Positions 20,393 to 53,900 of a stretch of 64,000 nt of DNA are shown piece by piece. Source of the DNA: a virus; the IMG/VR virus record IMGVR_UViG_3300044614_002617, positions 1 to 64,000 of that record. One strand, given 5' to 3'. The translations under genes were made by a program, and so were the position numbers. The notes under the pieces are model-generated. The model searched no databases. It had not been told where the DNA came from and saw only the letters and a program-made list of their open reading frames with translations. Each line of letters opens with the position of its first letter. Positions within the stretch are counted from its first letter, which is position 1.

Positions 20393-21028
20393 ATGATTCA
20401 TAAAGCAAAAGACCTAACTATTAGTCTATGTGATATTAAACAGATTAAAGAATTTGTTGAGAAGCATCATTACTCTCACTCTGTAAACGGCGTCAAGATA
20501 AAGTATTGTTTCAAAGTCGAGGCCGATGGTCAGTTGGTTGGCGGAGTGATTTTTGGAGCTATGTCAACCACTGCTTGGAAAAAGTTTGCTGATTCTGAAA
20601 AAAAAGTTTTAGAGCTAAGACGCTTAGTTTTGGCTGACTCTGCTGGCAGAAATTCAGAGAGTAGAACAATTGGTCATTGCTTAAGAGCTATTAAGAAAAT
20701 TGACAAAGATGTGTCGGTTATTGTTTCTTATGCAGATCCCTATCATGGCCATAGCGGAACTATTTACAGAGCATCAAACTTTACCTATGTTGGCATGAGC
20801 GGCGGCGATAACGGTTATTTAGACAAAGATACCGGAAAGGTTTATCATTCCCGCGCTTTGCGTACCAAATACAAAGGTGATTATAAGCCATTTGTTAAAA
20901 AACTTAGAGAAAAGCTAAAAAACGGCGTTTTAACTCCAATCCGTCTTCCTCCAAAACATTGTTTTATTTACAGTCTTTTAAAAAAGACAAAAAACACCTT
21001 CAATAGACTGGTCAATAGAAGTCAATAG
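20393..21028 (+). CDS. mom: Mom-like DNA adenine modification protein
   Basis: This 211-residue protein matches the phage Mu Mom family: HHYSHS at 25-30, ELRRLVL at 74-80, NSES at 87-90 and SYADPYHGHSG at 112-122, followed by YRASNFTYVG. Mom is a GNAT-fold enzyme that carries out the methylcarbamoyl modification of adenine in DNA and protects phage DNA from many restriction enzymes. The short basic C-terminal tail (about 165-211) extends into a tandem repeat. The gene sits in the accessory block, not near a com-like regulator; no Com-type zinc-finger gene is visible next to it. The family call is strong; the exact chemistry is inferred. Confidence 0.85.
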   Translation: MIHKAKDLTISLCDIKQIKEFVEKHHYSHSVNGVKIKYCFKVEADGQLVGGVIFGAMSTTAWKKFADSEKKVLELRRLVLADSAGRNSESRTIGHCLRAIKKIDKDVSVIVSYADPYHGHSGTIYRASNFTYVGMSGGDNGYLDKDTGKVYHSRALRTKYKGDYKPFVKKLREKLKNGVLTPIRLPPKHCFIYSLLKKTKNTFNRLVNRSQ

Positions 21029-21784: not shown

Positions 21785-22933
21785 ATGAAAAAAATCAATA
21801 TTGGAATTACTATCTTAGTTGAAGATTATAAGACTACAAATCTGTTTAGTAACGGGATTCGGCAAAATGTAATAACCCTTCAAAAACTTTTCAAAAAATG
21901 CAAAAATATAAATAATTCTTATATAATTAACACCTCTGGCATAAAAGGTAGTCCAGCCGGAACTGCGTGGGATGAGTACGCTCCGTTTATTATTACAAAG
22001 GAAGAAGCAAAACAAAAATGTGATTTAATCGTTGTTTGTCACGGCAGCCTTGCCGTAGAAGAATATGCTGCTTTTAGGGCAGCTGGCAAGAAAATAGTCA
22101 AGCAGATCCTCGGCGCGGAATTAGCAATGTTTAATGAACGAACATTATTTAATATTCCCGCTGGAGGTATCTATAAAAAAAATGAACATGTTTCCGCAGT
22201 TTGGCTTAGCCCTCACTTTTACGAGAGGGATCAGTATTTTTTTCAAGCAATCTACGGTTGCGAAACCCATATTGGCCCATACATTTGGGATAGTAAATTT
22301 ATTCAAGAGCACGTTGAGATTTTTAATAAAAATCAAAAATACAACTTTACTGCAAATTACGTCCCGAGTGGAGAAAAAGCAAAAAAAATTTCCACTATGG
22401 AGCCAAACTTAAATGTGGTAAAAACCTGCGCTGTTCCGTTAATTACGGCGGAGCTTTTGGAAAGAAAAAGTCCAGAAACCATAAAGTTTTTTAGCGTTTT
22501 TGGCGGAAAAGAAGTTATGGAAAAACCTGATATGATTCAAATGGTTAAAGACTTTGAAATTAACAAAAATAAAAAATGTTTTTTTGAGGCAAGATATCCA
22601 ATTGTGTGGACACTAAAGGAACATACCGATATTGTTTTGTGTCATCAAAATCAATGTGAATTAAATTATTTGTACTTAGATGCTGCATGGCTTGGGTATC
22701 CAGTGGTGCACAATAGTCCGATGATGAAAGAATTGGGTTGGTATTACCCGCAAAACGATTCAGAAACGGCAATTAAGCACTTAGAATACATAGCCAACCA
22801 TTTTGATACAAATGATTATGTAGACGAAAAATATTTAAAAAAATCAAGAGAATATGCGGCTCAATTCTTGCCGGATAACCCTAAGAATATTAAAGCGTAT
22901 GAAAAGCTAATTGAAAGGGTATATAACTCTTAA
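21785..22933 (+). CDS. DUF2827-like glycosyltransferase
   Basis: The 382-residue protein opens with INIGITILVEDYKTTNLFSNGIRQN, split by a short insertion, as in DUF2827 glycosyltransferases. It ends with a GT-B-like C-terminal domain: a FSVFGGKE strand near residues 238-245, a C-Q-x-x-CELNYLYLDAAWLGYPVVHNSP stretch near 295-320, and a C-terminal helix. GT-B enzymes move a sugar from a nucleotide donor; the acceptor is unknown and could be host surface sugars, DNA or virion protein. It has its own promoter and is the first of three glycosyltransferases in the window. Confidence 0.65.
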   Translation: MKKINIGITILVEDYKTTNLFSNGIRQNVITLQKLFKKCKNINNSYIINTSGIKGSPAGTAWDEYAPFIITKEEAKQKCDLIVVCHGSLAVEEYAAFRAAGKKIVKQILGAELAMFNERTLFNIPAGGIYKKNEHVSAVWLSPHFYERDQYFFQAIYGCETHIGPYIWDSKFIQEHVEIFNKNQKYNFTANYVPSGEKAKKISTMEPNLNVVKTCAVPLITAELLERKSPETIKFFSVFGGKEVMEKPDMIQMVKDFEINKNKKCFFEARYPIVWTLKEHTDIVLCHQNQCELNYLYLDAAWLGYPVVHNSPMMKELGWYYPQNDSETAIKHLEYIANHFDTNDYVDEKYLKKSREYAAQFLPDNPKNIKAYEKLIERVYNS

Positions 22934-24674: not shown

Positions 24675-25274
24675 ATGCGTTTTGTTTTTATGTTAAGCCT
24701 GCTGGTTGGTTGCGGCACTGTGGAAACAAAAACCGTAGAAGTTGAAAAGCCTGTCCCACAGCCTTTTTACATAGACACAAAAAAAGTAGACGCTAAGTTA
24801 CTTCCCCATGTAATGGAGTTTGCCGCCTATTGTGAAAAGTTTGACACGTCCGATACATGTAAAGAAAATTTTAAAAAAATTCACTCAATACGAATTGTTG
24901 AGTCCTTTCCTGAAAAGTTTGTTATTGGTAAGTGTTATGTTTCTGCCACAAAACGCTGGATTGAAATTCTTGATTGGCGGGATACTGATTCTTTTTTGAC
25001 TAAAACCTTGGTAACTCATGAACTGGCTCACTGCGTTCTTGGCAATCCTTTCCCTCATTATGATGAGGAGGACGACATTATGAACTCTTACATCTTGTCA
25101 GAGCAAACTATTTTTCGCAGTTGGCCGCAACTTATTAAGGCTATGTTTTTGCGCGCTGGCGGCACTTTACCATTGACACAAGAAGAAAATGTCCCTACAA
25201 TTACTCAGTCAACTATTTCTGAGACGGGAGGGCTTGCCTGTGAAACCAGAGAAGATTCGCTATCAAAATATTGA
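24675..25274 (+). CDS. Lipoprotein with zinc metalloprotease motif
   Basis: 199 residues, ATG 24675 after AAGAGG. Signal ends at lipobox LVGC (Cys13). The mature domain has HELAH at 115-119, another His at 128 and a DDIMNSY segment at 133-139 that could be a Met-turn. This resembles metzincin-type zinc proteases (HExxH, later His, Met-turn), although spacing to the third His is longer than the classical HExxHxxGxxH. It would sit in the envelope on a lipid anchor. It could cut cell-wall proteins, host receptors or virion proteins. The related protein at 21354 lacks the motif. Confidence 0.6.
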   Translation: MRFVFMLSLLVGCGTVETKTVEVEKPVPQPFYIDTKKVDAKLLPHVMEFAAYCEKFDTSDTCKENFKKIHSIRIVESFPEKFVIGKCYVSATKRWIEILDWRDTDSFLTKTLVTHELAHCVLGNPFPHYDEEDDIMNSYILSEQTIFRSWPQLIKAMFLRAGGTLPLTQEENVPTITQSTISETGGLACETREDSLSKY

Positions 25275-25611
25275 AGAGCAGTTTCCGCAACTTTTACAGT
25301 GTGGACTCGAAGTTAATGAGGGGTGGCTTCCTTTAATTTGGGATATGTGTGAGCAACTTTTGGCATCAAGAGAGGCTATTAATATTCCAATTTCAAAAGA
25401 AAATCCTTTGCACTTTGTTCAAATTAAAGAAAAGTTTGGAACCCTAAGGGCTTATGCTGTTACATCTACTGAGGAAGACGAAAAAATTATCTCTATGTTT
25501 GAGGACATGAGTCAGTTTATATGCGATGTTTGTGGAGATCCGGGAAAGATTAGAGGCAAACACTGGGTATATACAGCTTGTGATGCACACACAAAACCTT
25601 CTGATAAGTAA
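25240..25611 (+). CDS. Phage protein with C-terminal CxxC zinc-binding segment
   Basis: An earlier in-frame start at 25189 exists, but GTG 25240 follows GGGAGGG and is preferred, giving 123 residues that overlap the previous gene by 35 bases. The centre contains FVQIKEKFGTLRAYAV, a phrase seen in a widespread family of small phage proteins, followed by CDVCGDPG and a later C-x-x-H (ACDAH) that could bind zinc. Function unknown. Confidence 0.6.
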   Translation: MKPEKIRYQNIEEQFPQLLQCGLEVNEGWLPLIWDMCEQLLASREAINIPISKENPLHFVQIKEKFGTLRAYAVTSTEEDEKIISMFEDMSQFICDVCGDPGKIRGKHWVYTACDAHTKPSDK

Positions 25612-25616
25612 AAGTT

Positions 25617-26519
25617 ATGAATTTTTTTAAGTTTTTACGAGTTACAGAAGCGGCAGCTATTGCCAGTTCTAAATGGATTGGTAAGATGGACAAAAATGCA
25701 GCGGACGGAGCCGCTGTAGACGCCATGAGAGCAGAATTTGAGTTTATGGACATTCAAGGCGTTGTGGCTATTGGCGAAGGTGAGTTAGACGAAGCTCCTA
25801 TGTTGTACATTGGAGAAAAGCTGGGAATGGGTTGTGGCGACAAGTGTGACATTGCCGTAGATCCGCTAGAGGGTACCGAATTGGTTGCTAAAGGTAGGCC
25901 CAACGCTATCTCCGTGATGGTCGTGGGGGAGCAGGATACCCTTATGCGAGCACCTGACTGTTATATGAACAAAATAGTTGTGGGGCCAAAAGCCAAGAAT
26001 GCTCCGGTAAGTCTGTTTAAGGCTCCTGAACAAAACCTTAAAGCAATTGCCGACACAATGAAAAAATCAGTCAAAGATCTGACTGTTTGTGTCCTAGATA
26101 GGCCAAGACATACTGATTTGATTAAAGAAATTACCGAATCAGGAGCTAAAATATCACTTATTAGTGACGGCGACGTACTCGCTGCTATTGGTGTGTGTAT
26201 TGGCAAGTACGATGTGCTGATGGGGATTGGCGGTGCTCCGGAGGGTGTTATTTCGGCTGCAGCAGTCAAGAGTCTGGGTGGAAGGATTCTGGGACGTTTA
26301 GTATTAGACACACTAGAGATCAAAGAACGAGCCGCCAAGATGTGTAAGTGCGATGATATAGAGTACGATACAGCAGATATGGCTTACGGTGAACATATAG
26401 CCTTTATTGCGACAGGAGTGACAGACTCTTTTTTGCTGAACGGAGTCACTCAAGATGAAGTTCACTCAGTCATACTGACTCCAAAAGAAAGAAGATTTAT
26501 AAAGACGACTTATGGCTAA
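25617..26519 (+). CDS. glpX: Class II fructose-1,6-bisphosphatase (GlpX family)
   Basis: A complete 300-residue GlpX protein (family usual about 320-340). It hydrolyses fructose-1,6-bisphosphate to fructose-6-phosphate, the gluconeogenic step, and in some cyanobacteria also acts on sedoheptulose-1,7-bisphosphate. Visible hallmarks are GEGELDEAPMLYIGE at 53-67, VDPLEGT at 81-87 and GIGGAPEGV at 203-211. Residues D30, E54, D82, E85 and E209 line up with acidic metal ligands of E. coli GlpX (D33, E57, D85, E88, E213). It ends inside the terminase large subunit gene (8-base overlap), so both are probably made from one message. The usual GlpX N-terminal extension is slightly shorter. The family call is firm; carbon-flux role is inferred. 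Confidence 0.92.
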   Translation: MNFFKFLRVTEAAAIASSKWIGKMDKNAADGAAVDAMRAEFEFMDIQGVVAIGEGELDEAPMLYIGEKLGMGCGDKCDIAVDPLEGTELVAKGRPNAISVMVVGEQDTLMRAPDCYMNKIVVGPKAKNAPVSLFKAPEQNLKAIADTMKKSVKDLTVCVLDRPRHTDLIKEITESGAKISLISDGDVLAAIGVCIGKYDVLMGIGGAPEGVISAAAVKSLGGRILGRLVLDTLEIKERAAKMCKCDDIEYDTADMAYGEHIAFIATGVTDSFLLNGVTQDEVHSVILTPKERRFIKTTYG

Positions 26520-28488
26520 AAAGAAAGAACCAGAGCTAACAGAAGAGCAGCGGCTACGCATTGAGATGCGTAAACGTCTTTTGTTTACTATCTGTGAATC
26601 CAAAGAAGAGCTTCAGCAATTTATCAAGACTTTCTTGAAGCTAGACTTGCCGGACTGTACAGTAGATGAACTATCTACTTCCAATCCTATGGAGTCTGTT
26701 TGGCAAATTTACTGCACCATGAAGACCAACAAAGGTGCCCACCGTGTTGTTGTGGCTGCTTCCCGTAACTCAATGAAAACCGTTATATCCGCAGTCATTC
26801 ACTGGCTGGCTATGGTTCACTTTAGGCGCTCGTGTCTACAAATTGCCGCAATTAAAGATCAGTCTTATAAAGCAATTAAATATCTCAAAAAATTTCTTCG
26901 TATTCCGGAACTTCAAGATCATTTTGAAACTAACAGAGCCGGCGAGCTTAGACTATCTAATTTGCCTCCCAACTCATATACATCTAAAGACGATGCCGAC
27001 GTATTCGTGACGGCAGCAACCCTCGAAGGTGCCAACTCATCCCGCGCCTCTATAATTATTCGAGACGAGTGTGACTTGACACCTAGAGAAATCCTTTCAG
27101 AAGTCGCCATGGTTGCCGACCCCACTCAAGACGAGCATGGTTTCGAGCCAATTACAATTTCTCTGTCGTCTCGTAAGACTTCTCAAGGGCCTTTGCAGGA
27201 ACTTATGGAAGAAGCTGAAAAAGGCGAAGATTCCGATATTAGACTAGATAAATGGTCAGCGGTAGACTTTATGAAAAAGTGTCCGCCCGAAGTTCATGGA
27301 GAAAAAAGACTCAAAGCGTATCTTCATACCGAAAATCTTAAAGTTAGATGGGATGAAGAGACGTTCCAGGACGAGCCGCAGGCGATTAAGACTAAGTATA
27401 AAGAAATACTAGCTTATGAAGGTTGTGTTACTTGTCCTGCGTTTATTGCCTGCCAAGCCCGCGCTCCCAAGCAAACAGGCAAATCGAAAACACTTAGGAC
27501 AATCGCCTTTACGGGCAACTTCATCAAAGAGACTAAAGAAGCCAACAAGATTATTGCTCAGATTCTAAATTGGCGTCCTGAAACCGGCGGCCTAGTGTTT
27601 CCTACGTTTAGTCGTCATCTTCATGTAAGAAACATAGAAGAAACTTGGTATTGGATGACTGGCCAACAATGGAAAGCCAACAGGAAATGCACTAAGCAGG
27701 ATGTCTATGCTTGGGCAGTGACTAATAAATGGGAAGTAAGTTTTGGGGTTGACTGGGGCGTTAGAGATGCCGCCGTGGTTACAGTAATTCTGTATTCACA
27801 AACTCAATCACGCTGTATTGTCTTAAGCGTTCGCGCAGCTACTGGGTATCCTAACTCTCAATGGGCTGAAACCATTAGACAAAAAGAGTGTATGACATTT
27901 CCGCCAGATATTGTGTGTCCCGATATGGCCGATGCCGGATCCGCTCACTATTTTCAACCATATGGATTTGCTGTCAAATCTAAAAAACCAGCTCAAATTG
28001 AAACCGGTGTAAGTCAAATTCAATCGCTGCTGTGGAACGTAGAGCGACAAGAGTCCGACGTAGTATTTTGTAAGGCAGAAAACGATTCCGGTATGGATTT
28101 TGCTGTTGATTGCATGATTGGGTGGATGCACAAGAAAGACCCTCGTGGAGAATTTGACACGAGCAGATACGAAGATGATGATAATACTCACTTTCCCGAT
28201 GCCTTTCGTTATGCATTGGATAAGTACAGAACTTCTATGGAAATTCGTATTGCTAGCAAGAAAAACATCGAACAGGCGCCCACAACTCGCGAGCAAGCAT
28301 ACCGCAAGGATATTGACGCCGCTATGTATGATACCTATAAAGAAATGGGTGTGCCTTTAATGCCGTCTCAACTAGCTGAAATGACTATAGACGCTTATAG
28401 AAAAGCGGGCATGGGGCATCTTATTGAGGGAGACGCCCAAGGCTCTACGCCCGAACCAAAGAAAAAACTAATTAAGTTTAGTATCTAG
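26512..28488 (+). CDS. Terminase large subunit
   Basis: 658 residues, ATG 26512. The packaging ATPase shows a Walker A-like ASRNSMKT at 83-90 (variant of the usual P-loop, as in many phage terminases) and a Walker B IIIRDECD at 181-188. The RNase H-fold nuclease begins near residue 408 (FGVDWGVRDA) and its last acidic motif is FPDAFRYALD near 560. It cuts concatemeric DNA and drives it into the prohead through the portal. The portal gene is about 8 kb downstream. The N-terminal ~60 residues are charged and precede the ATPase core. A cysteine cluster at about 305-315 (GCVTCPAFIAC) may bind zinc. Confidence 0.95.
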   Translation: MAKKKEPELTEEQRLRIEMRKRLLFTICESKEELQQFIKTFLKLDLPDCTVDELSTSNPMESVWQIYCTMKTNKGAHRVVVAASRNSMKTVISAVIHWLAMVHFRRSCLQIAAIKDQSYKAIKYLKKFLRIPELQDHFETNRAGELRLSNLPPNSYTSKDDADVFVTAATLEGANSSRASIIIRDECDLTPREILSEVAMVADPTQDEHGFEPITISLSSRKTSQGPLQELMEEAEKGEDSDIRLDKWSAVDFMKKCPPEVHGEKRLKAYLHTENLKVRWDEETFQDEPQAIKTKYKEILAYEGCVTCPAFIACQARAPKQTGKSKTLRTIAFTGNFIKETKEANKIIAQILNWRPETGGLVFPTFSRHLHVRNIEETWYWMTGQQWKANRKCTKQDVYAWAVTNKWEVSFGVDWGVRDAAVVTVILYSQTQSRCIVLSVRAATGYPNSQWAETIRQKECMTFPPDIVCPDMADAGSAHYFQPYGFAVKSKKPAQIETGVSQIQSLLWNVERQESDVVFCKAENDSGMDFAVDCMIGWMHKKDPRGEFDTSRYEDDDNTHFPDAFRYALDKYRTSMEIRIASKKNIEQAPTTREQAYRKDIDAAMYDTYKEMGVPLMPSQLAEMTIDAYRKAGMGHLIEGDAQGSTPEPKKKLIKFSI

Positions 28489-28497: not shown

Positions 28498-28567
28498 AAT
28501 CTCACCGAATGGTATTTAAAGTCTGCGTTTTATTTGTGGGCTATACACACAAACAGTGAGAGAAAAA

Positions 28568-31500
28568 ATGGCACTAAAGGATAAAACCAAATTACATATT
28601 AGATATAGCCTAGTTAATCCAGACGCAGCCGAGGATTTGATAAATAGCGTTGAGCAAAGATCAGACGCAGATATTGCCGCCGACGCCGAGCTTTTTGCTG
28701 CAATCCAAAATGAACAGGCAGCCAGAATTGCCTCAGACTCCACAATTCACAATAAAATCAACGCAGAAGCCGCCGCTCGTAATAATTCTTTGGCCATGGA
28801 GTCTGAAGCACGTCGCACAGCTGACGACGAACTAGAAGAGCGCTTAGATGTAGTACAGGGCTCCGACGCAGTCGCAGGGTCTATAGCAAATTCTTTAAAA
28901 AATGCAAAAGCTTATACGGACAGTTCTGTTAGCACAGAAAGCGCAAGGGCAATCAACGCTGAGGCGTCTTTAAGTGCAAAAATTAACAACATGGCGTCAA
29001 ACGTAGATCCCGTTGCCTTAGACTCTTTGTCTGAGATTGTAAGCGCTTTTCAAGACGCTGACTCAAATTTAAACAGCGCTATTACTACCTTGGCTAACAA
29101 TGGCACCGCTAATCTAAATGCAGAAAAAACTGCCCGCATGGCTGCTGATGCCTTATTAAGCGGTCGTTTAGATGTTTTAGAAGGCTCTGATACTGTTACC
29201 GGTTCGGTCGCAAAAGCTCTTAAGGATGCCAAGGCGCACACAGATGCAGAGAAGGCAGAAAGAATTGCAGCGGTTTCTGTGGAAAAAAATAGCCGCATAG
29301 CCGCAATCGACGTTGAGGCGACTGCAAGAGAACTTGCCGATAATATTGAAAAATCAGAAAGAGTCGCGGCGGACTCTGCCGAAAGGGCATCCCGCACCGC
29401 AGCTATTAGTGCGGAAGCGCAGTCCCGTAGAGATGCAGACGGTTTGCTGCAAGCCTCGATCGTTAATGCAGAACTTTCTCTTGCAGAATCATTAAATAAC
29501 CAAAAAAACACACTCGAAGCTTCAATTGATAACGAGGTTTTCGCTCGTACACAAGCCGATGCAAACTTGTCATCTTCGCTCTCTAGCGAAGTAAACCGCG
29601 CACAATCCGCTGAATCTGGCTTATCGAACGCTTTATTTGCGGAAGTGGCTCGCGCACAAGCCGCCGAAGTCGCGCTTCAGTCTTCTTTAGATGTAGAGAT
29701 TTCAGCAAGGCAAATCAGTGATGCGGATATGTCCGCCCTCCTTGGCGCAGAGCAAACTGCTCGTCAAAATGCAGACGCAATTTTACAGGCCAATATTTCG
29801 TCTGAGCAAGCGGCCAGAATTGCAGCCGACAATCAACTGCAAAATGCAATCAATATTGAGTCAACCTCCCGTAAAGCTGAAATCGCTGAAGAAATGTCTG
29901 CAAGAAAAGCAAACGACGTTAATCTTCAGAATATGATTGCACTTGAAAGCACTCAGAGAGCGGAGGCCGATTCGGCAATTCAAAATAGCCTTGCCTTAGA
30001 GTCAGCTTCTCGACAGAACTCTGATAATACTATACAAAATAATCTTAATGCTGAAATTGTCTTAAGGCAAAGTGCGCTCGCAACCGAGGCTGCGGCACGC
30101 CAAAGCGCAGACTTGGTTTTACAAGGAAATCTTGACGCTGAAAAAACAGCACGCGAAAACGCTGACAATTCTTTGCAAGTATCTATCAATAATGAAGTTT
30201 TGGCTAGACAGTCCGCTGTTGCAGCCGAAGCCGCAGCTCGTCAAGCCGCTGATGCCGCGCTTCAGGCGAGTATTAATAATGTTTTGTCCAATTTAGACAC
30301 AGGTGCGCTCGATTCGTTGTCAGAAATCGTTGCAGCGTTTCAGGATGCTGACTCCAACCTTCAGGGCGCCATTTCCAGCCTTGCCGTTAATAGCTCGTCC
30401 AAAGTGGACGATGAGGCGACCGCAAGGATTGCGGCGGACAATTCTCTTGCAGCTGCTATTGAGCTAGAAGCTCAAGAGAGAGACGAAGCATATCAGTCAC
30501 TTCAAAATCAGATGGACAGCGAAATTTCAACCCGTCAAGATGAAATCGACGCAGAAATTACCGCTCGTCAAAACGCAGATTCATCTCTAGAGGCAGCTAT
30601 TGCTGCGGAGCAGTCCAGCCGAGCTTCCGGAGACAACTTTTTGCAAATTCAAGTAGACGAGCTCGCCGACTACTTTAAAACACAGCAACAAGCATCTAGT
30701 ATATCCTCTACAAATGCACTTAACGCAGAAGCATCTTTACGTCAAAGCAGCGACGAGGCTCTTCAGGCGGCGATTGATTCCGAAGCCGCTCGCGCTCTTG
30801 CTGCGGAATCTGCACTTGCAGTAAGAATTGACAATGTTCTCTCAAATATTGATCCAGATGCTCTTGATTCTTTAGCGGAAGCTGTAACCGCATTTCAGGC
30901 TGCTGATTCTGAAATTCAAGCTGCCATCTCCAGCCTTGCTTCATCGGGCGCTGCTGGCTTGGATGAAGAGCGATCTGCTCGTGCCGCCGGCGATGTTGTT
31001 TTGGAAGCAAGTTTGTCCGCAGAGGCCGCAGCTCGTGAATTGGAAGATGCAAGTATTCGATCAGCTTTAAGTGCAGAAATTGCTGTCAGAGAAGCATCCA
31101 ATTTTGCTGAAATGTCTCGTGCAATTGCAGCGGAAGTTGCTGTTCAGGAAAATCTAAATGCCGAAGTTCTGCGCGCAGTCGGAGCAGAAGCTGCGCTTCA
31201 GGTGGCGCTAAGCGATGAAGCGTCTTCTCGCGTTGCAGCTGTTACAGAAGCTCAAGACTCCATCAATATTGAAAAAACAGCTCGCATGGCGGCCGACACT
31301 CAACTTCAAGAAAAAATTGATGTTGAAGTTTCTAACCGTATCGCTGCGGACAATTCAGAAAGCGCAGCCCGTTTGGCGGCTGATAATGATTTGTCAAATC
31401 GTATTGATATTCTAGAAGGCTCGGACGCAATTGTTGGCTCAGTTGCAAAAGCCCTTAAAGACGCCAAGGCGCACACAGATGCGGAAGTGTCTACCGAACA

Positions 31501-34456
31501 ACAAAGGGCAATGACTGCAGAAGCAGCCCTTGCAGCAAGAGTCGATGCAGTTCTCTCAAATATTGATCCGGATGCTCTTGATTCCTTGTCTGAAATTGTA
31601 ACTGCATTTCAAGCAGCCGATGCTAATATTCAAGGAACAATTTCAGAGCTTGCCAATAATGGTGCTGCCGGCATTCAAGCAGAAGCATCCGCTCGTGAAG
31701 CTGCTGACTTTGCAGAACAATCTGCTCGTATGGCAGCCGACAGTGCAATCGCAGCTGCGCTTGACGCCGAGATTGCCGCAAGAACAGCCGATGTTGCGAA
31801 CGAAAGTGCAGCTCGAATTGCGGCAATAAGTGCCGAAACAGTTGCCCGTCAAACCGAAGGCTCCGAATTGCGGGCAGAAATTGAAGCAGAAGCAGCTCGC
31901 GCTAATATTGCAGAGTCTTCTCTCCAGAATGCTTTGAGCGCAGAAATCGTTCGTGCCCAGACTGCCGAAGCCGATCTTCAATCTTTACTTAGCGCAGAAA
32001 CCTTTGAGCGCCAAAATGCTATTTCCGCTGAGATGTTAGCGCGCTCAGCCGCCGATAGCGGACTGCAGAACAACATCGACGCAGTTGCAATGAGTCTTGC
32101 TCAAGAGCTTCTAGATCGCACCTCTGGTGATGCAAGTGTATTGGCGTCTGCTCAGGCATATGCTGATCAAAAAATCTCTGACCTTGTTAATTCTGCTCCT
32201 GCAGTTCTTAACACTCTCAAAGAACTTTCCGATGCACTTGGCGGCGATCAGAATTTTGCAGCTACTGTCGCCGGTCAAATCGGTGACGTTCAAGCTAATG
32301 TTGATGCCGAAGAAGCAAGAGCGATTGCAGTTGAAGCTTCATTACAGGCTTCAGTAGCTATCCTTCAGGGTGCTCTTGATTCAGAAGTAATTGCACGAGC
32401 TGCCGCTGATGATTTGATTCAAGCTTCTATCGCAACAGAAGCATCTAATCGTGCTCAGGAAGTCGCCGATGAGATGACCGCTCGTCAAGCAGCCGATGCC
32501 GCTATCGCAGCAGACCTTGCCGATGAGGCGGCTCGCGCAACAAATGCGGAAGATGTTCTCGACGCTAAGATTGATCAGGAAATTTTTGACCGTTCAGAAG
32601 CAATTACAAGTGAACAGCAATCTCGCCAAAGCGCAGACAATGCTTTGCAAAGCTCAATTACCCTAGAGGCTTCAAATCGTTCTGCGGAAGATGCTGTATT
32701 AAATACAAAAATTGTTGATATTAACTTAAATCTTAATACACAGATTATTTCGCTATTTGAAAACAATGCCGCTGTATACGCCGATGCGCTTGCTGGCACT
32801 CAAGACCCAAACAATCGAGATGGTTGGTATTTTAAAAATGCTACTCAAGGGCAGAAAATTAACTGGTATTTCTTTGACGGATCTAAAGAGAATATTTCTC
32901 TTGGAGACTTTAGTGCATACGCGGTGGTAACTTTTGACTCAGTTGTTAGTAAGCCATTCTTGGCGGTTTATACAACTCCGACTGCATCCGGAAACGCAGC
33001 CAGCTGGTATAAATCAAGAGTAGTTTACGTTGCTGACAGTTCTGCTGTGGTTGGCGTTAAGTATCTCATGCACTTTGGTCAAGACCCTAAAGTTCACCCT
33101 GAGCTGCCTCGCCTATCTATGTCTCCATCATCTAGCTCAAATGGTACAAGAGACGCTTCTGAGCGCATATTGACAGCCGCACTTGGTTCAGATTCAGGAA
33201 CTTCTGCGAATAACTGTCAATTTGTTGCCGAGTCGGTCGGCGTTTATAGCCCTGCAATTAAACGTAAATCCAAGCTTGAGATTCGCAAGTCTTCTAGGAT
33301 TGACTTAAATGCTGAAATTACCAGCAGAACGGCTGGGGATGCTCAGGCTGTCCAGACAGCTAAAAGCTACACAGATGCTCAAATTGCAGCACTTAATTAC
33401 GTTTCATCTGTCAATGGTCTAGCTGGGGCAGTTAGCTTAGGGTCTGACCAAATTACTGAAGGTTCACAAAACCTTTACTTCACGGAAATGCGAGCAAAAA
33501 GCGCCGCCGTTGTTAATAATATGTCTGGTTCGCAATCGGACTTAGCTCCGTCCGTATCCGCAGTTAAAACTTATGCTGCCCAATACATGAAAAAAGGCTC
33601 TGCAATTTGGTGTTTGGCCGGCGGCGAATACCCAACTTTGCAAGCAGCTATTGATGCGGCTTCTCCCGGACAGGTGATTCTTCTTGGCGAAGGCACTTGG
33701 GGCGACGCAACACTTAAGGGGCGCGTTGATATTATTGGTTTAGGTGCTCCTAAAAATACTAATATCGTTGTTGGTAAACTTAGTTTTGCTCCAACGAGTG
33801 GTTCTGCTGTAGACAATCAAGTGTTTCTTTCAAATATGCTTATTAGCGCTAGTTCCACTGCTAGCGGCATATCACTTGGCGGTACGGCTCCGGTTCGTCT
33901 TAATTTAAATGGCTGTTATGTATATAGAGGTTCTGGCACGTCAACCTTAGTAAGCTTAGCAAATACAGACACAACCGCAACGACTGTAAGAATGGATGGG
34001 TGTGCTGTCATTTCCGGAGGAACGGACGGAACGCTTGTTACAAGCAGCGTTAGATACTTGAGAATCACGAGTTCGGAATTTTCAGGTGCCTCAAAAGCAT
34101 TTATTGTAAATGGTGGCCTTACCCAGATTGCTATTTCTAATATTGAAACAAACTCCGCTACGGAAATTATTCAAGTTACAGCAGGTGCAACATGTACGGT
34201 TAGTACATGCCTTGTTCGTAACCTAACAACAAACGGAAGCGGCGTTTCCGTTGCAACAAACGGCGTTTTTATTGCATCTACTCTTGCTATGTTTGATGTG
34301 GCAAGCGGGACAGGATACTGTGTAAGAGGTACGGGAACAATGATCTACGATATGATTTCTTTTAATCATATTGCTGTTTTGCAGCCAAGAAACATAAAAT
34401 TGCAAAACACTCTCAGCGTTGTTCAGCTGCCTTCTACACCCACCTTAGTGCCGTGA
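28568..34456 (+). CDS. Giant tail fibre with coiled-coil repeats and beta-helix tip
   Basis: A GTG at 28556 is in frame, but ATG 28568 follows GTGAGAG and is the likelier start (1962 residues). Most of the protein (about 20-1450) is built from short Ala/Asp/Glu/Ser-rich units of the type EAxARxAADxxLQ that should form a long trimeric coiled coil. A longer unit, containing ALDSLSEIVxAFQxADS, recurs at about 29005, 30290, 30850 and 31570. From about residue 1680 (GGEYPTLQAAIDAA) the C-terminal part looks like a pectin-lyase-type right-handed beta helix, often the receptor-binding or sugar-cleaving part. It likely contacts host surface glycans. Confidence 0.8.
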   Translation: MALKDKTKLHIRYSLVNPDAAEDLINSVEQRSDADIAADAELFAAIQNEQAARIASDSTIHNKINAEAAARNNSLAMESEARRTADDELEERLDVVQGSDAVAGSIANSLKNAKAYTDSSVSTESARAINAEASLSAKINNMASNVDPVALDSLSEIVSAFQDADSNLNSAITTLANNGTANLNAEKTARMAADALLSGRLDVLEGSDTVTGSVAKALKDAKAHTDAEKAERIAAVSVEKNSRIAAIDVEATARELADNIEKSERVAADSAERASRTAAISAEAQSRRDADGLLQASIVNAELSLAESLNNQKNTLEASIDNEVFARTQADANLSSSLSSEVNRAQSAESGLSNALFAEVARAQAAEVALQSSLDVEISARQISDADMSALLGAEQTARQNADAILQANISSEQAARIAADNQLQNAINIESTSRKAEIAEEMSARKANDVNLQNMIALESTQRAEADSAIQNSLALESASRQNSDNTIQNNLNAEIVLRQSALATEAAARQSADLVLQGNLDAEKTARENADNSLQVSINNEVLARQSAVAAEAAARQAADAALQASINNVLSNLDTGALDSLSEIVAAFQDADSNLQGAISSLAVNSSSKVDDEATARIAADNSLAAAIELEAQERDEAYQSLQNQMDSEISTRQDEIDAEITARQNADSSLEAAIAAEQSSRASGDNFLQIQVDELADYFKTQQQASSISSTNALNAEASLRQSSDEALQAAIDSEAARALAAESALAVRIDNVLSNIDPDALDSLAEAVTAFQAADSEIQAAISSLASSGAAGLDEERSARAAGDVVLEASLSAEAAARELEDASIRSALSAEIAVREASNFAEMSRAIAAEVAVQENLNAEVLRAVGAEAALQVALSDEASSRVAAVTEAQDSINIEKTARMAADTQLQEKIDVEVSNRIAADNSESAARLAADNDLSNRIDILEGSDAIVGSVAKALKDAKAHTDAEVSTEQQRAMTAEAALAARVDAVLSNIDPDALDSLSEIVTAFQAADANIQGTISELANNGAAGIQAEASAREAADFAEQSARMAADSAIAAALDAEIAARTADVANESAARIAAISAETVARQTEGSELRAEIEAEAARANIAESSLQNALSAEIVRAQTAEADLQSLLSAETFERQNAISAEMLARSAADSGLQNNIDAVAMSLAQELLDRTSGDASVLASAQAYADQKISDLVNSAPAVLNTLKELSDALGGDQNFAATVAGQIGDVQANVDAEEARAIAVEASLQASVAILQGALDSEVIARAAADDLIQASIATEASNRAQEVADEMTARQAADAAIAADLADEAARATNAEDVLDAKIDQEIFDRSEAITSEQQSRQSADNALQSSITLEASNRSAEDAVLNTKIVDINLNLNTQIISLFENNAAVYADALAGTQDPNNRDGWYFKNATQGQKINWYFFDGSKENISLGDFSAYAVVTFDSVVSKPFLAVYTTPTASGNAASWYKSRVVYVADSSAVVGVKYLMHFGQDPKVHPELPRLSMSPSSSSNGTRDASERILTAALGSDSGTSANNCQFVAESVGVYSPAIKRKSKLEIRKSSRIDLNAEITSRTAGDAQAVQTAKSYTDAQIAALNYVSSVNGLAGAVSLGSDQITEGSQNLYFTEMRAKSAAVVNNMSGSQSDLAPSVSAVKTYAAQYMKKGSAIWCLAGGEYPTLQAAIDAASPGQVILLGEGTWGDATLKGRVDIIGLGAPKNTNIVVGKLSFAPTSGSAVDNQVFLSNMLISASSTASGISLGGTAPVRLNLNGCYVYRGSGTSTLVSLANTDTTATTVRMDGCAVISGGTDGTLVTSSVRYLRITSSEFSGASKAFIVNGGLTQIAISNIETNSATEIIQVTAGATCTVSTCLVRNLTTNGSGVSVATNGVFIASTLAMFDVASGTGYCVRGTGTMIYDMISFNHIAVLQPRNIKLQNTLSVVQLPSTPTLVP

Positions 34457-36311: not shown

Positions 36312-38309
36312 ATGTCAGATGATAAGAAAATTACTATCAAAATAGCAGATGGCGTAAGTCCAGACGAAAATATTAACGTCAACTCTATTGACGACGTAAC
36401 TGGAATTATTAAGCAACGTCTTGGGCGCACAATGCTGTCTAAGTCCGATGTTCAAAAAATCAACGAAGAAGAGTTTAAGAAGCGCAAATACAAACAATCT
36501 AAAGTCAAGTTTGGTTCACGTTTTAATACTCGTATTGGCGTAGGCGACTCTCTTTCAAAAGAACCTAAGCGCCTCTCAGACGCTGAGCTCAAAGAACTTT
36601 CTCTTATCGACCCCTATATTGGGGCAATCATCAATACCCGCGTTGCCCAGATTTCCAGCTTCGGCGCTCGGTCTGAGTCTAAGTTTGACAAGGGTGTTCG
36701 CGTTATTGATTTAGAAGAAATTCGCCGCGAAGATTTTGATAACGAAGAAGCCTTCGAGCGTGAACTCAAGCTCCGCGAAGCAGAAAAGAAAGCTATTCTT
36801 GAGTGGGTATTAAAGTGCGGAACTTCTGACAAAAAAGTTCTTGACGAAATGTACGAGGCCGCCGATCCTACCTTTAAACACTGTTCGCTGAAAGATTACT
36901 TTCAGGCTCAAACTCGCGCCCTGTTGACATTTGGTCGCAGCGCTCGCCAGAACCTTTTGAACGCTGATGGGACTATCTGTGCCTTCAGGCCAACTCCGAT
37001 TGAGACTATTAAGCAAGTCAAGTTTGGTTCTAAGGTTCACGTAACGGCAGTCTCTGATATCGCGCAGCAGTCAGAGGCGGACGCCGCTGAATACAACAAG
37101 ATTCCTGTCAACGAAAAGCCCATTGCCTACGTTCAAGAGGTAGATGGCGTTCAGACTGGCTTTTTTACAGAAGAAGACCTGAAAGTTGTTTACTACCAAG
37201 TCCAGTCATTCCTCGACCTCAATGGTTATCCTATGGGGCCGATTGAGTTCGCTTTGTTTTTGGTTTATATCCATCAGCACACCCTCAGCTACCTTCGTAA
37301 TCAGTTTGTTAAAGGACAGCTCTCTAAGAGTATGATTGTGGTCAGGCCCACCGACCCATCAGTCAAAATCTCCGACGAAGATATTGAGTCTTTTAAAATG
37401 GAGATTCAAAACCTAGCGACAAGAACAGACAATAGTTCTGTTATTCCGGTTATTGGCGGCCCCGTTGAGCTTGAGCTCATCAAGACAACGGAAACTCCAA
37501 AAGACATGGAATGGATGCAAGTTGAACAGACTGTTATTCGTGCGTTATGCTCCGCTTTCCAAATCTCCCCTACAGAAGCTGGCTTTGGGCAGCTTGGCGA
37601 CACCGCAGGTATGGGTCAAGGCAGTCGTGACTACGAACTCGTTCAGGGTGAAGAGCGCGGCCTCAGGCTCCTTGTAGATATCTTAATGGAAGATGTCAAC
37701 GATGCTGTTTATCAAAACTTCCCAGAAGCTAAAAAACGCTACAGGGTTGCGGCGTTTGGTATTGGTAATGAAACACGCGAAGGTGTAATTCAGCGCCAAT
37801 CTCAAGAACTACAAACAACAGCGACTCTAAATTCGCTGTTCAGTGATTCTGACAAAAATCGTCAATTTGAGTTCGGCGGCGATGTTCCCTTAGCTCCTCT
37901 GTTTCATCAGAATGTGGCTCGATACATGACTTATGGAAAGTTTATGGAGGCGTATTTTGGAATGGAAGGTGCCTCTAAGCGTCCAGAGCTAGACTTTATT
38001 ATCGACCCTAGTCTTAACCAAGCTTATCAGCAACTTAAGATGGGTATGCAGCAGATGCAGGCTCAGCAGCAAGCGCTCGGGCTGGAAGGTCAAAAAATGC
38101 AGCTCGAGGCACAGCAAGCTCAGATGCAACAAGCGGCTCAGGGCGAGCAGCAAGCTCAACAGAGCCAACCACAGCCACAACCAGAAGAGCAGCAAAAGTC
38201 AGAAGACGTTGAGCTTCAAAAGGCATGGGAAGAATCCATGAAGGCTAATCACGAAAGTCTGTTAAAATCATGGCTTAGAGTTCATGACTCGAAGATTGAT
38301 GAAGAGTGA
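36312..38309 (+). CDS. Portal protein
   Basis: 665 residues, ATG 36312 after ATAGGAAAT. The order of conserved parts (a DPYIGAIINTRVAQISS helix near 98-115, a wing with YPMGPIEFALF near 303-313, a stem with QFQISPTEAGFG-type segment near 418-430, and a helical crown) is typical of SPP1/HK97-type portals. It forms the dodecameric ring through which DNA enters, and docks terminase. The last 100 residues are Gln-rich, forming a long helix; that is common in portal crowns. A Gln/Ala-rich tail reaches to residue 640. Confidence 0.88.
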   Translation: MSDDKKITIKIADGVSPDENINVNSIDDVTGIIKQRLGRTMLSKSDVQKINEEEFKKRKYKQSKVKFGSRFNTRIGVGDSLSKEPKRLSDAELKELSLIDPYIGAIINTRVAQISSFGARSESKFDKGVRVIDLEEIRREDFDNEEAFERELKLREAEKKAILEWVLKCGTSDKKVLDEMYEAADPTFKHCSLKDYFQAQTRALLTFGRSARQNLLNADGTICAFRPTPIETIKQVKFGSKVHVTAVSDIAQQSEADAAEYNKIPVNEKPIAYVQEVDGVQTGFFTEEDLKVVYYQVQSFLDLNGYPMGPIEFALFLVYIHQHTLSYLRNQFVKGQLSKSMIVVRPTDPSVKISDEDIESFKMEIQNLATRTDNSSVIPVIGGPVELELIKTTETPKDMEWMQVEQTVIRALCSAFQISPTEAGFGQLGDTAGMGQGSRDYELVQGEERGLRLLVDILMEDVNDAVYQNFPEAKKRYRVAAFGIGNETREGVIQRQSQELQTTATLNSLFSDSDKNRQFEFGGDVPLAPLFHQNVARYMTYGKFMEAYFGMEGASKRPELDFIIDPSLNQAYQQLKMGMQQMQAQQQALGLEGQKMQLEAQQAQMQQAAQGEQQAQQSQPQPQPEEQQKSEDVELQKAWEESMKANHESLLKSWLRVHDSKIDEE

Positions 38310-39382: not shown

Positions 39383-39997
39383 GTGAAACCAAATCTTCCT
39401 ACAGTGACTCTTATTATTGCTGATTGCGTTGATTACGACAGAGCTAGATTGTCTTTTGAGCACTGTAGGGCGTTGTGTAATTTTGGGGACGCCAAGCTTC
39501 TAACTCACTTTGATACCCAAGATTCTAATGTAGTCAAAATCCCCCCAATCAAGTCTATTGAAGAATACTCTCACTTTATGATCAAAGACTTGGCCAACTA
39601 TTTTGACACTCAGCACGTCTTGGTGGCTCAATGGGATGGGTTTGTTTGGAAGCCAGAGCTGTGGGACAACAAGTTCCTGCAGTACGACTACATTGGCGCT
39701 CCATGGCCTGAGAGCGTTCTATTCAAGGGAGTTCCTAAGCATTTCAACGTCGGTAATGGTGGATTCTCTTTAAGAAGTAAAAGACTTCAAGATTTTTTAC
39801 GAGATGACGATAAGATTACTATGCACAGGGCAGAAGATGTAGCCATCTGTCAGCTCAATAGGGCATACTTGGAAGCCAAGGGGTTTACGTTTGCTCCGTT
39901 TGAGTTGGCCGAGAAGTTTAGTTGGGAATGTTTAGAAATGAGTCCAGCGTTTGGAGTTCATGCTAGGCTAAGGCTTGTTAATAGGAACAAAAGATGA
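39383..39997 (+). CDS. DUF5672-type glycosyltransferase
   Basis: GTG start at 39383. The 204-residue protein has the DUF5672 hallmarks: QWDGFVWKPELWD, then YDYIGAPW, then NVGNGGFSLRSKRL and HRAEDVAICQ. This family adopts a GT-A-like fold and is often found in phages and in sugar-modification loci. The NGG and ED motifs are conserved. Acceptor unknown. Its last four bases overlap the following lipoprotein gene. Confidence 0.8.
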   Translation: MKPNLPTVTLIIADCVDYDRARLSFEHCRALCNFGDAKLLTHFDTQDSNVVKIPPIKSIEEYSHFMIKDLANYFDTQHVLVAQWDGFVWKPELWDNKFLQYDYIGAPWPESVLFKGVPKHFNVGNGGFSLRSKRLQDFLRDDDKITMHRAEDVAICQLNRAYLEAKGFTFAPFELAEKFSWECLEMSPAFGVHARLRLVNRNKR

Positions 39998-46296: not shown

Positions 46297-47217
46297 TTAA
46301 AAAATATTAAGCCTTTCTAAGGCGCTGATAAATTTAAACGCAGACATTTTTGAAACACATTCAGCCACTTCCATTTTTCTTGGGCAATTTGAAAAATCCC
46401 AAAAGTTTAAATTCCAATCTGATTCGCAAAAATTACAAATTATATTCGGAACAACCGGAATCGTTTGGGCTATGCCTCTATACGGAATGCGCAATTCAGG
46501 CTTAATTGTAGTAAAACCGCATACCACTGGAGTTTGGGTTGTCCATGCAATGTGAATAGGGCCGCCATCCATACCAACAACGGCTCTAGACTTGCTCATA
46601 ATAGCAGCAAGCTCTCTAAATGATGTTTTATCTCTTAAGTCTACTCCAAATCCCGGATACTCAAAGTCGCTCATTGCCAAATTGTTTTTCCATATACTGA
46701 TAGATCCTGTTTTTCCTACATAAACAGGAATCAGCCCTTTTGCATAAACGTATTCCGCTATTTTTTTAATTTCGGTTGGCAGAATAGTTCTTTGCTTATC
46801 TCTGTATGTAGTTATGATTACAACCGCTTTACTGAAATCTACGCCGTACTTACTAACATCCACTGGCTTTAGGGGCACATATTGCAATTCAGCGTCGCTG
46901 AGTATTTTTGCCATTAAGCCAATACAAGCGTAGTGAGTTAACTTAAGCCTCGAAGGAGTCAGCTTACATAGATTGCCGCCCGGAGCAGGAATATTTAGAT
47001 AGCGAACTGAATAATCTTTGTCGTAACTTCCGCTGATTTCTGTAAATTTTTCTTCTGGAACAAAAGGAAACAAATCTTTAAAATCTGGATAGATTCCAAC
47101 TTTATAGTCGGTTTGCTGATGATACGTTTCGATTGCATGCTTAAGAATAGGAGCAGCGGCAATCAAGTCACCTACGGCGGCGCTATTAAGGCAATAAATT
47201 GTTTTATTCGCAAACAT
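46297..47217 (-). CDS. GT9-like (heptosyltransferase-type) glycosyltransferase
   Basis: A TTG start at 47223 is possible; ATG 47217 follows GAGG at a good distance and is preferred (306 residues). It has a GDLIAAAPIL motif near the start and a later segment (VDLRDKTSFRELAAIMSKS then GMDGGPIHIAW) with the DGGPxH motif of GT9 enzymes. GT9 enzymes add heptose or related sugars to LPS. The gene lies just after the helicase gene, with a few bases' overlap. Acceptor unknown. Confidence 0.75.
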   Translation of the reverse strand: MFANKTIYCLNSAAVGDLIAAAPILKHAIETYHQQTDYKVGIYPDFKDLFPFVPEEKFTEISGSYDKDYSVRYLNIPAPGGNLCKLTPSRLKLTHYACIGLMAKILSDAELQYVPLKPVDVSKYGVDFSKAVVIITTYRDKQRTILPTEIKKIAEYVYAKGLIPVYVGKTGSISIWKNNLAMSDFEYPGFGVDLRDKTSFRELAAIMSKSRAVVGMDGGPIHIAWTTQTPVVCGFTTIKPELRIPYRGIAQTIPVVPNIICNFCESDWNLNFWDFSNCPRKMEVAECVSKMSAFKFISALERLNIF

Positions 47218-47219
47218 AA

Positions 47220-48671
47220 TCAAACCTCTTTATAAACAATATCATCCGTTATTGTTTCATAAACGCCATATCTTGATTTAGCATACTGTTTAAAAATATC
47301 AAAGAACTTTTCGCTATCACTATTCCAAATTCCATAACCAGCAGTTGTAATATCAATAAAGATAAGTTTTTTTCCTTTCTTGTACCGTAACCCACGACCA
47401 ATAACCTGTCGAGTCAGAGCCTCCGCCGAGTTTTGAACGCAAGAAATCATAAAGTCAACATCGGGCAAGTCGATGCCCTCTCCCAGTAGGCTGCTGTTGG
47501 AAACCAGCAAATTAGTCTTTCCGTCTTTGAATTTATAAAAAGGATTTCGATAGCCACTGTGGGCGGGCTCGCAGTTTACTCCCATCTCAGTTGCATATTC
47601 ACAAAATTCTGCTGATGGCTCTACGGTTTTAAATAGTACCAAGACCTTAAGGCCTCTGTTTAGTCCACTTTTTACTAAATTAAGCACCGTATGAAGTGCT
47701 TTTTCATGAGTCGAAAGCATCTTATAAGCTGTCTGCTGATGGGTCATCTCTCGAACGCGCCCCAGTCCAGTGACCGTAAGGCAAGTGATGGCTACGGGAC
47801 AAAGGTACTCATTATCAATAGCCCACTTACTGTCTCTTTGAAAGACGATAGGCCCAACAATTCCATGAAAGCCCAACTCTAAATTATCCGCTCTAACTGG
47901 CGTTGCGGTAAACCCATAAATATATTTAGCTCGACTTCCAAAAATAGCCAGCTCTTTATACATATTAGAGGAGGAATGGTGAGCTTCGTCAATAATAATA
48001 GCATCGAAGATGTCTGAATAGTTACGGCCACTATTAACAGTAGCAATAGCAATATCAACACCCTCTTTAAATTTATGTTTTCCACCGATGCCGCAACTTT
48101 TAGGAGCAATCTGTTTGATATCTTTAAGCATCTGAGAGATAAGTTCGACAGTGGGAACAACGATGAGGACTCGGAGGCCGCGCTCGATGAGGGCGCGGCT
48201 TAGTAGACTGATACACATTGACTTGCCAGTTCCTGTAGGCAGGACAATACAACCTCTCTTGTACTGAAGGGCTGTTCTGACTGCTTCGGCTTGATAGTCT
48301 CTTGGAACTTTAGGTCCAACGGGAGATAGGTTAAGCTCTCTGTCTTTTTCTTTATGGCCTTCCATATTGGGAACAAGCCACCAGAATCCGGGAGGTACGC
48401 TCAAAGTACCGTCTTCATTATCGCCATAAAACTCAACTTTGGTTTCTAACTCTAACTGTTTAATTTCATTTTTAATTTTGATTGCGTGTTTGTCGTTGTA
48501 AGGTTTTTGGCGTTTGAGTTGTTTAATCTTTGAAATAACGCCCTTATTTTCAACCGTCAAGAGTTTCTTGACAGTTTCAAGTACGTCTGAAGAGCCAGAC
48601 AGGGTAATTTCATTATTTTTATATTCACCTATAAGACCGTGTATGGGCTCAAAGGCATTATCTTTAGCCAT
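47220..48671 (-). CDS. SF2 helicase (UvsW/SSL2-like)
   Basis: 483 residues, ATG at 48671 after GGAG. Motifs in order: a Q-like PRDYQAEAV near 126, Walker A PTGTGKS near 142-148, DEAHH near 228-232, FTATP near 255 and QVIGRGLR near 420. T4 UvsW and related SF2 helicases act on D-loops, R-loops and stalled forks. The first ~120 residues contain a basic linker and no known domain. It is the only clear DNA-repair or replication protein in the window. Reverse-strand orientation sets it apart from the structural genes. Confidence 0.85.
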   Translation of the reverse strand: MAKDNAFEPIHGLIGEYKNNEITLSGSSDVLETVKKLLTVENKGVISKIKQLKRQKPYNDKHAIKIKNEIKQLELETKVEFYGDNEDGTLSVPPGFWWLVPNMEGHKEKDRELNLSPVGPKVPRDYQAEAVRTALQYKRGCIVLPTGTGKSMCISLLSRALIERGLRVLIVVPTVELISQMLKDIKQIAPKSCGIGGKHKFKEGVDIAIATVNSGRNYSDIFDAIIIDEAHHSSSNMYKELAIFGSRAKYIYGFTATPVRADNLELGFHGIVGPIVFQRDSKWAIDNEYLCPVAITCLTVTGLGRVREMTHQQTAYKMLSTHEKALHTVLNLVKSGLNRGLKVLVLFKTVEPSAEFCEYATEMGVNCEPAHSGYRNPFYKFKDGKTNLLVSNSSLLGEGIDLPDVDFMISCVQNSAEALTRQVIGRGLRYKKGKKLIFIDITTAGYGIWNSDSEKFFDIFKQYAKSRYGVYETITDDIVYKEV

Positions 48672-50959: not shown

Positions 50960-53900
50960 ATGTCTGAAATTTTACACAAAGACTTGATTGGCGAAGACAT
51001 TCACGAGTTGCGTATTGCGATTGGATCGTCTGCCCCTTCTTCTATGCCTTTGTTTGTCGGGCAGGGATATTACGATATTGTCAATAAAAAGTTTTATGTT
51101 TCGCAAGGAACGGCTACAATTTCTGATTGGGTTACCACGGAAATCCCTCCCTTTTTAGCATTTATGGATACAAGGACTATTACTTGGACTTCTAATACAG
51201 CTGGAAATCAAATCACTTACAGCGCAAATGTTGAAGAGGCTGAGCTAATCCTTACATCTGAAAATGTTACTGATTTTTCAAATGCTGTTTTGACTATTCC
51301 TCAAATTGTTTCCTTGTTGGCGGATCAACACACTCGTTTGATTATGAGAACCGGCGGCGAACCTCAGCCAACTGTTTGGAATCCTGTTTATTTCAATGGT
51401 CTAGAGCTCGATAGCGATTCTCAAAAAATCAGATTGTCACAAGATTTGTCGGATATTGGTACTCCTACTTTTAATGAAGTGACGCTTACTGTTAGAGCAA
51501 AAACCCCTATCCTAACTTTGACTCCGGATGGTGTGCCCGCTTCCGCATCGCTTTATCTTGATGCTGATAAAGGCATGGTTGCAAGAGGATACGCTGGTTC
51601 AACGTCTAGCTTTACGCTTCAGAACGAGGCTGGCACGGACGTACTTAACAATCCGGTTGGTTCTAATCAACTAATCGCCCCCTCGCTAGCGGCTGGAGCT
51701 GGAGCGTCGGGCGTGGTGCATTCCAACGCAAACGGTCTTTTAAGTGCATCTAAAATTGTCGATGCAGACGTTGATGCTGCAGCGGCAATTCAGGGAACCA
51801 AAATCGTCCCTGATTTTGGAAGTCAAGATATTACGACAACTGGCAGTATTTTTGTTGATACAATTGAATCGAATACTGATGATATTGGTATTTTGACAGG
51901 AAACGCAAACAAAAATATTTCGATTGGTACAGGCTCTGGATACAATACAATTACGCTTGGCGGCATAAACTCTACCGTTAATATCTCAGGAGCAACATAC
52001 ACCACTCCAATTGAGTATGTCTCTGAAGATAAAAACATTGTCGTAAACTTTAATGCATCTGGCCAGGATTCGCAGGACTCAGGCGTTTATGTTCAAGAAG
52101 AATACGCCGGTGCTCATATTGATTTGTTGGATGTCACCTGGCAATCTGGAAATACAGTTAGATATGCAGTTGACGGAGCCGGAAGCGGAGTTGATGGGCT
52201 TACTGCCGGCGAATATATTCGTGTTACTGGTTTTGTAAACAGTCAAAATAATGGAACTTTTAAGGCACTTACGGTAGATCCTGCATATATTGATGCCATT
52301 AACCCTAAAAGAACTGATGCCTCATTAGACGAAACCGGAGTTGCTGCTTCAAGCGCAGCTCGTTTGTTGCTAAACGGATATGTTCATGTGGGCTCTACTC
52401 GCATGAGCTGGGAAGTTCGAGCGCCTGCTCACTTGGGAATTATTGAACTAAAACCACAAGCAGTTGCAAAAACATTACTTTTAACTAGCGAATCCGCAGA
52501 CAACGTAACCGTTAAATTTAATACAAATTTGACGATTGATCAAGATTTGCAAAAAACCTCGGCGGTTGAGTTTTCTGAACTAACGGTTTCTGATTTAACT
52601 ACGGGCGTTCTGCATGCCGATGTGGACGGCAAGGTCTCTTCATCTTTGATTGTTAATGCCGATGTTGACGGTGCGGCTGCAATTGCAGGAACTAAAATTG
52701 TTCCTGACTTTGGAAGCCAAGATATTACAACGACTGGGCACTCTTCTTCTGCAAGTGTAAAAATTACCGGCACTGAACCAGTTGGAGGAGCTAATTTATT
52801 TTCTAGCCCCTCTAATGGATTAGTAGTTAGGGGAATTGCAGGAACAGGTTCTCAATTTAAATTTATAAGTGATTTGGGTGTAAATTTAGTAACAATTTCA
52901 GACACATCTGTTACTCTACATAACTTAACAAGTGGCCTAGTTAAATCATCCGCAGGTGTACTGTCGTCTTCCTTGCTTGTTGATGCCGATGTTGATGCAG
53001 CGGCTAATATTCAGGGCAGTAAGATTGAAGCGGCTAGTGCAACAAATGCGGGCGCCGTTACTACATCTTCGCAGTCATTTTCTGGAGATAAAACATTTAC
53101 CGGAAGCTTAACTTTTTCTAGTTTTGCTACGGCGGGAGTCGTTCATAACGATGAATACGGTTTGTTGTCTACATCGTTAATAATGAACGCCGACGTTGAT
53201 CCAATGGCAGCGATTTCTGCTTCTAAAATCGCCAATCAGCCAGCAGGAAACATTGCAGCCACGGACGTTCAAAGTGCGATCAATGAGATTGACACGGACA
53301 AAGTAGCAAAAGCCGGCGATAGTATGACCGGCAACCTATCCTTTTCCTCAAATTTTGGAATTGAGTCATCAGCCGCCTTAAGCACTTTAAATGTTGGTAC
53401 CGCTCCAAACACTTCTGTTCTTAATTTAGGAACAGGAAGCTCAACGAATGTGATTAATTTGGGAACGGGCTCTGGCGTAACCACAATTAATATTGGTGGC
53501 GCAGGCGATACAATTAATATTACGGGCACCCTAAACAGCGTTAATGTTACAGACATGGATGTAACTGATAAAAATATTACGCTCAATAAACAAGGGGCAC
53601 TAGCATCCGGAGACGGCGCCGGCCTTAATATTGAAGAAAATGCAGTTATTGCTGGATATGCTAAAGTTATAAACAGCCGAACAAGTTGGGGCTTTAAAGC
53701 GCCAGCAAATCAAGGAGAAGTTCAATTAACACCACCCGTTGGCTCATATATTGCAGAATTTAAGATCCCCGCATTAACAGCGTCGGCAGTTTATACGTTC
53801 CCCGCCGCAACCGACACCTTGGTTGGCCGAAATAGCACTGATAGTTTGTCTAACAAAACTCTTCTTGATCCGATTATTGATCAGATTAGTCCGTACAACG

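Follow-up and report, generated by a model that had tools for sequence, protein, structure and literature searches.

The gene glpX, for a class II fructose-1,6-bisphosphatase (FBPase), lies immediately upstream of the terminase large-subunit gene, terL, in a group of large, uncultured bacterial viruses. We analysed a stretch of 64,000 nucleotides (the window) that forms part of a 110,367-base IMG/VR virus record; both the locus and its gene layout (Table 1) are conserved in related viral contigs, and an apparently functional glpX maintained by selection suggests that the virus steers the sugar metabolism of its host. The reading that we prefer, at a probability of roughly 60%, is that glpX is a virus-borne auxiliary metabolic gene whose product would be an active FBPase, made from a common transcription unit and directing fructose-6-phosphate towards pentoses for nucleotides.

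Table 1. Positions in the window of the genes and the promoter-like element discussed in the text
Feature	Position	Strand	Size	Basis
Sigma70-like promoter element TTGACA-N17-TACAAT, candidate	25173..25201	+		Motif match, conservation
Small cysteine-containing protein	25240..25611	+	about 123 aa	ORF; homologues in L001, L002, L088
glpX, class II fructose-1,6-bisphosphatase	25617..26519	+	300 aa, ATG start	Family profiles, active site, model
terL, terminase large subunit	26512..28488	+	658 aa	Mx1 TerL homology; adjoins glpX in relatives
Portal protein, downstream head gene	36312..38309	+		PHROG portal families, Mx1 portal
GT9-family (heptosyltransferase-like) protein	46297..47223	-		PF01075, E 4e-09

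The assignment of the enzyme is clear. In a Pfam profile search, its residues 5–289 match PF03320 with an E-value of 7.6e-111 (370 bits against a cut-off of 27), and the score for the NCBIfam equivalog TIGR00330 (glpX) is 309.7 bits, above the cut-off of 259.3. Its sequence relatives of solved structure are class II FBPases in every case. The catalytic residues of the Escherichia coli and Mycobacterium tuberculosis enzymes were taken from a published list, which for E. coli GlpX comprises D33, E57, D85, E88, T90, Y119, K164/R, R166, D188 and E213 (PMC5892879). In the alignment, all ten have their equivalents in the window protein, at D30, E54, D82, E85, T87, Y116, R162, R164, D186 and E209; R162, aligned with E. 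coli Lys164, is matched by an arginine in the M. tuberculosis enzyme. Also present are RPR, which forms the phosphate pocket, and DGD, motifs described as the fingerprint of fructose-1,6-bisphosphate binding (PMC10289334). An AlphaFold2 model calculated with 28 sequences has a mean pLDDT of 92.9 and compares with E. coli and M. tuberculosis GlpX (2r8t, 3d1r and 7txb) at TM scores of 0.91–0.93. A C-terminal hairpin is shorter in the phage copies than in their cellular counterparts. We conclude that the product is a GlpX-type FBPase with an intact active site and the predicted fold, as the first-pass annotation had proposed in describing a complete class II FBPase gene with its GlpX motifs and metal-ligand positions retained.

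At the 3′ end of glpX, the stop codon and the terL initiation codon overlap by eight shared bases, ATGGCTAA, such that the ATG at 26512 lies inside glpX. The overlap had been recognised at the outset, together with the identity of the downstream neighbour, and both observations stand; the description of the two genes as fused does not, since they are distinct, overlapping genes. No Pfam or PHROG match was obtained for the downstream open reading frame (ORF). Its product shares 29% identity with the protein annotated as terminase large subunit in Myxococcus phage Mx1 (E 3e-51), and the name terminase is therefore correct. A structure model of TerL, with a pLDDT of 33.8, was left out of the evidence. 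Between terL and the portal gene, positions 28556–34456 encode a repetitive, Ala-/Ser-rich protein of 1966 residues; at the equivalent place in contigs L001 and L088 there are only short ORFs of about 87–101 aa, so that the window appears to carry a large insertion or expansion here.

A scan of 2.9 million viral contigs for GlpX and TerL revealed five with GlpX proteins 77–88% identical to that of the window (L001, L006, L002, L003 and L004), and a sixth, L088, was found through its TerL. The GlpX proteins of L002, L003 and L004 are identical, and these contigs were consequently counted as one lineage. In all six, glpX is situated immediately 5′ of terL and overlaps it, by eight bases in the first five and by 17 in L088; a sequencing artefact, raised in the first-pass annotation as a possible source of the overlap, is ruled out by this recurrence. 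Two further contigs from different samples, L089 and L092, are uninformative about glpX because their sequence opens at codon 7 of terL, only a few bases past the glpX end; variation among glpX alleles may have broken both assemblies at this point. The 43.6 kb fragment L099, whose TerL is 46% identical, is without glpX. Its TerL (L099:4983-8222) apparently contains an intein of about 400 extra residues, starting with CLAPGTLVITSQG and ending with NGVAVHN, before the conserved C-terminal part.

Beyond these contigs, glpX is an unusual phage gene, as had been surmised: it has no family in PHROGs, no convincing copy among 50,697 phage records, and no fold match to the GlpX model in the viral structure library at E ≤ 0.001. 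Five phage-collection hits (H1–H5) were rejected as viral glpX, being bacterial records or short unannotated fragments. Contig L098 was likewise rejected as a further viral lineage; its glpX belongs to a chromosomal flank adjoining prophage genes and sits between sequences that, by eye, resemble the C-terminus of a homoserine dehydrogenase and recJ.

The small protein upstream of glpX has its longest ORF at 25189–25611, ending five bases before glpX, although we infer from conservation that translation starts at the GTG at 25240. The promoter-like element is the sole 11/12 match to a sigma70-type promoter in the window, where two sites fit the looser pattern TTGACA-N15-19-TACANT (0.24 expected). 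L001, L002, L006 and L088 retain its -35 box, its spacing and TACANT, the surroundings in L088 aligning poorly. In L001, L002 and L006, the element lies within the 3′-terminal coding sequence of the ORF ahead of it, and coding constraint may therefore contribute to its conservation; in a wider scan, promoter-like sites were no more frequent than in shuffled sequence. The element is evidence for a promoter of a unit comprising the small protein, glpX and terL, and is silent on the timing of expression, so that the late expression suggested in the first-pass annotation stays a conjecture.

In the mechanism that we propose, these three genes would probably be co-transcribed from this host-type promoter. 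GlpX would hydrolyse fructose-1,6-bisphosphate to fructose-6-phosphate during infection, opposing glycolysis, and host transketolase and related enzymes would convert the fructose-6-phosphate to pentoses. This pentose step would depend on the host because no transaldolase or transketolase was found in the glpX phages. The pentoses would feed ribose and dNTP synthesis, for which the lineage encodes ribonucleotide reductase and dNTP enzymes: a 162.7 kb sister phage, G001, has both reductase subunits, a dUTPase, a deoxycytidylate-type deaminase and a dNMP kinase, and the reductase is also present in G003 and G007. The record to which the window belongs contains neither a reductase nor the GmhA-like isomerase considered below; judged by alignment to G001, it seems to stop before that region. 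No tie of glpX to the Calvin cycle and no cyanobacterial link was found.

The enzyme may act on sedoheptulose-1,7-bisphosphate as well, and we know of no sequence rule that distinguishes a dual FBPase/SBPase from an enzyme with a single activity. An alternative, which we regard as unlikely, is that the protein is mainly an SBPase, or a dual enzyme, and that sedoheptulose-7-phosphate would pass to a phage GmhA-like isomerase and the GT9-family transferase, serving a heptose or surface-glycan branch and not nucleotides. Dual-function cyanobacterial enzymes are indeed among the relatives of the window protein, a GmhA-like sedoheptulose-7-phosphate isomerase is encoded by G001, G002 and G003, each a glpX carrier, and the GT9-family protein is kept in seven of ten records (the window and six others). 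The GmhA-like match, however, scores slightly below its equivalog cut-off and the gene is distant from glpX; the GT9 match is weak, heptosyltransferase models being matched only far under their cut-offs, and neither a heptose kinase nor a nucleotidyltransferase was identified in these phages. A more elaborate form, in which a dual FBPase/SBPase, the isomerase and the transferase would make up the phage's own heptose supply branch with its entry enzyme in the packaging operon, strikes us as less likely again. The context thus leans towards nucleotide supply, with a heptose branch through SBPase and GmhA possible and less well supported. In G001, the GmhA-like gene (L119:4941-5543) adjoins aminotransferase-like and deaminase-like genes.

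Elsewhere in the window, positions 20393–21028 encode a member of the Mom family of DNA modification proteins (PF25680, E 7.6e-41), a hint that the phage DNA is modified, and two proteins amid phage genes belong to DUF2827 (21785–22933, E 1.1e-81) and DUF5672 (39383–39997, E 3.2e-22). A protein of 1635 residues (50960–55867) ends in a C1q domain (PF00386, E 1.5e-08) and perhaps forms a receptor-binding tip.

Phylogeny against host GlpX had been put forward in the first-pass annotation as a check. In trees that included more than 50 cellular proteins, the viral copies group together in one clade with SH-aLRT support of 98–99. They are about 55% identical at best to the nearest cellular proteins, which are spread over several phyla and indicate no single donor or host. 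Among close viral copies, dN/dS is 0.085–0.11, and viral glpX is kept under purifying selection. A search for TerL in 369 genomes of the L011 phylum and 195 of the L022 phylum gave no hit; it had no positive control, and we draw nothing firm from it.

The histories of glpX and terL are nevertheless partly separate, since between the window and L088 the TerL proteins are 88% identical and the GlpX proteins 54%. The DNA identity of this pair is about 60% before the start of terL and 89% beyond it, and between L001 and L006 dS is 0.04 for terL and 0.28 for glpX. These differences point to recombination among phages on the glpX side of the junction, or to faster divergence there, with the active site still intact. 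Independent capture of the L088 glpX is not favoured, given the viral clade (98–99), a common IATGVTDSFLL stretch and the shared shortened C-terminus; both branches are long, and taken alone L088 has no supported place in the tree.

The faster divergence of GlpX relative to TerL would also fit a former FBPase that has been repurposed, either to dephosphorylate another metabolite or for a non-enzymatic role linked to packaging. Such a change of role would account for the close association with terL, the overlapping position being fixed in all carriers, and the lack of a close cellular relative and the shortened C-terminus are in keeping with it. We nevertheless consider repurposing improbable: the active site is complete, with all ten catalytic residues and the RPR and DGD motifs retained even by the L088 protein at 54% identity, and dN/dS is low. 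Bacterial contamination or misassembly, by which a host glpX would have come to stand next to phage genes, has in its favour that glpX is common in bacteria and that L098 and the phage-collection hits did not hold up as viral loci, but it is effectively refuted by the same junction in several distinct, independent viral contigs, the viral-only clade, the low dN/dS and a GC3 of glpX (0.397) equal to that of terL (0.395).

Claims for viral genes of carbon metabolism are frequently based on one contig and its automatic annotation, and contamination is a constant concern. Here, that glpX is a genuine viral gene is well supported, because several distinct phages share an intact copy at a fixed, terL-overlapping site, in a viral-only clade and under selection. 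Viral glpX is consequently well suited to a biochemical test of the idea that phages drive the metabolism of infected cells in the direction opposite to glycolysis, and the dNTP enzymes and sedoheptulose-7-phosphate isomerase of the sister genomes offer specific, testable destinations for the carbon.

Viral glpX is itself known from surveys. Soil and trench viromes have been reported to contain it as an auxiliary metabolic gene (PMC12615777, PMC12448302), and a table in a review lists it as not validated, crediting an ocean survey (PMC12713726) whose main text does not name glpX (PMC11360552). The genes in these reports are, like that of the window, virus-encoded and annotated to central carbon metabolism; in the parts of these sources available to us, they appear in annotation lists without locus, phylogeny or terminase linkage, and the likeness is drawn at the level of annotation (PMC12615777, PMC12448302, PMC12713726). 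In the open-access literature, we found no earlier report of a conserved glpX–terL locus. An annotated parallel for the packaging genes is Myxococcus phage Mx1, in which a single gene separates terL from the portal gene downstream and the TerL and portal proteins are 29% and 24% identical to those of the window; the complete Mx1 genome is without glpX and has hypothetical proteins upstream of terL.

In terms of metabolism, the talC, zwf, gnd and cp12 genes of cyanophages form pentose phosphate modules and are likewise believed to divert carbon into pentose phosphates (PMC10452541); they do so with other enzymes and at another step, whereas the glpX phages lack transaldolase and transketolase. 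The cyanobacterial dual FBPase/SBPase (3roj, 5a5l) is alike in family and fold, at about 40% identity to the window GlpX. The solved GlpX enzymes of E. coli (3d1r, 2r8t), M. tuberculosis (6ayy, 7txb) and Francisella tularensis (7js3, 7txa) resemble the window protein in family, catalytic residues, substrate motifs and predicted fold; the latter, 40–46% identical to them, is distinguished by its shorter C-terminus and by being encoded by a phage, beside terL.
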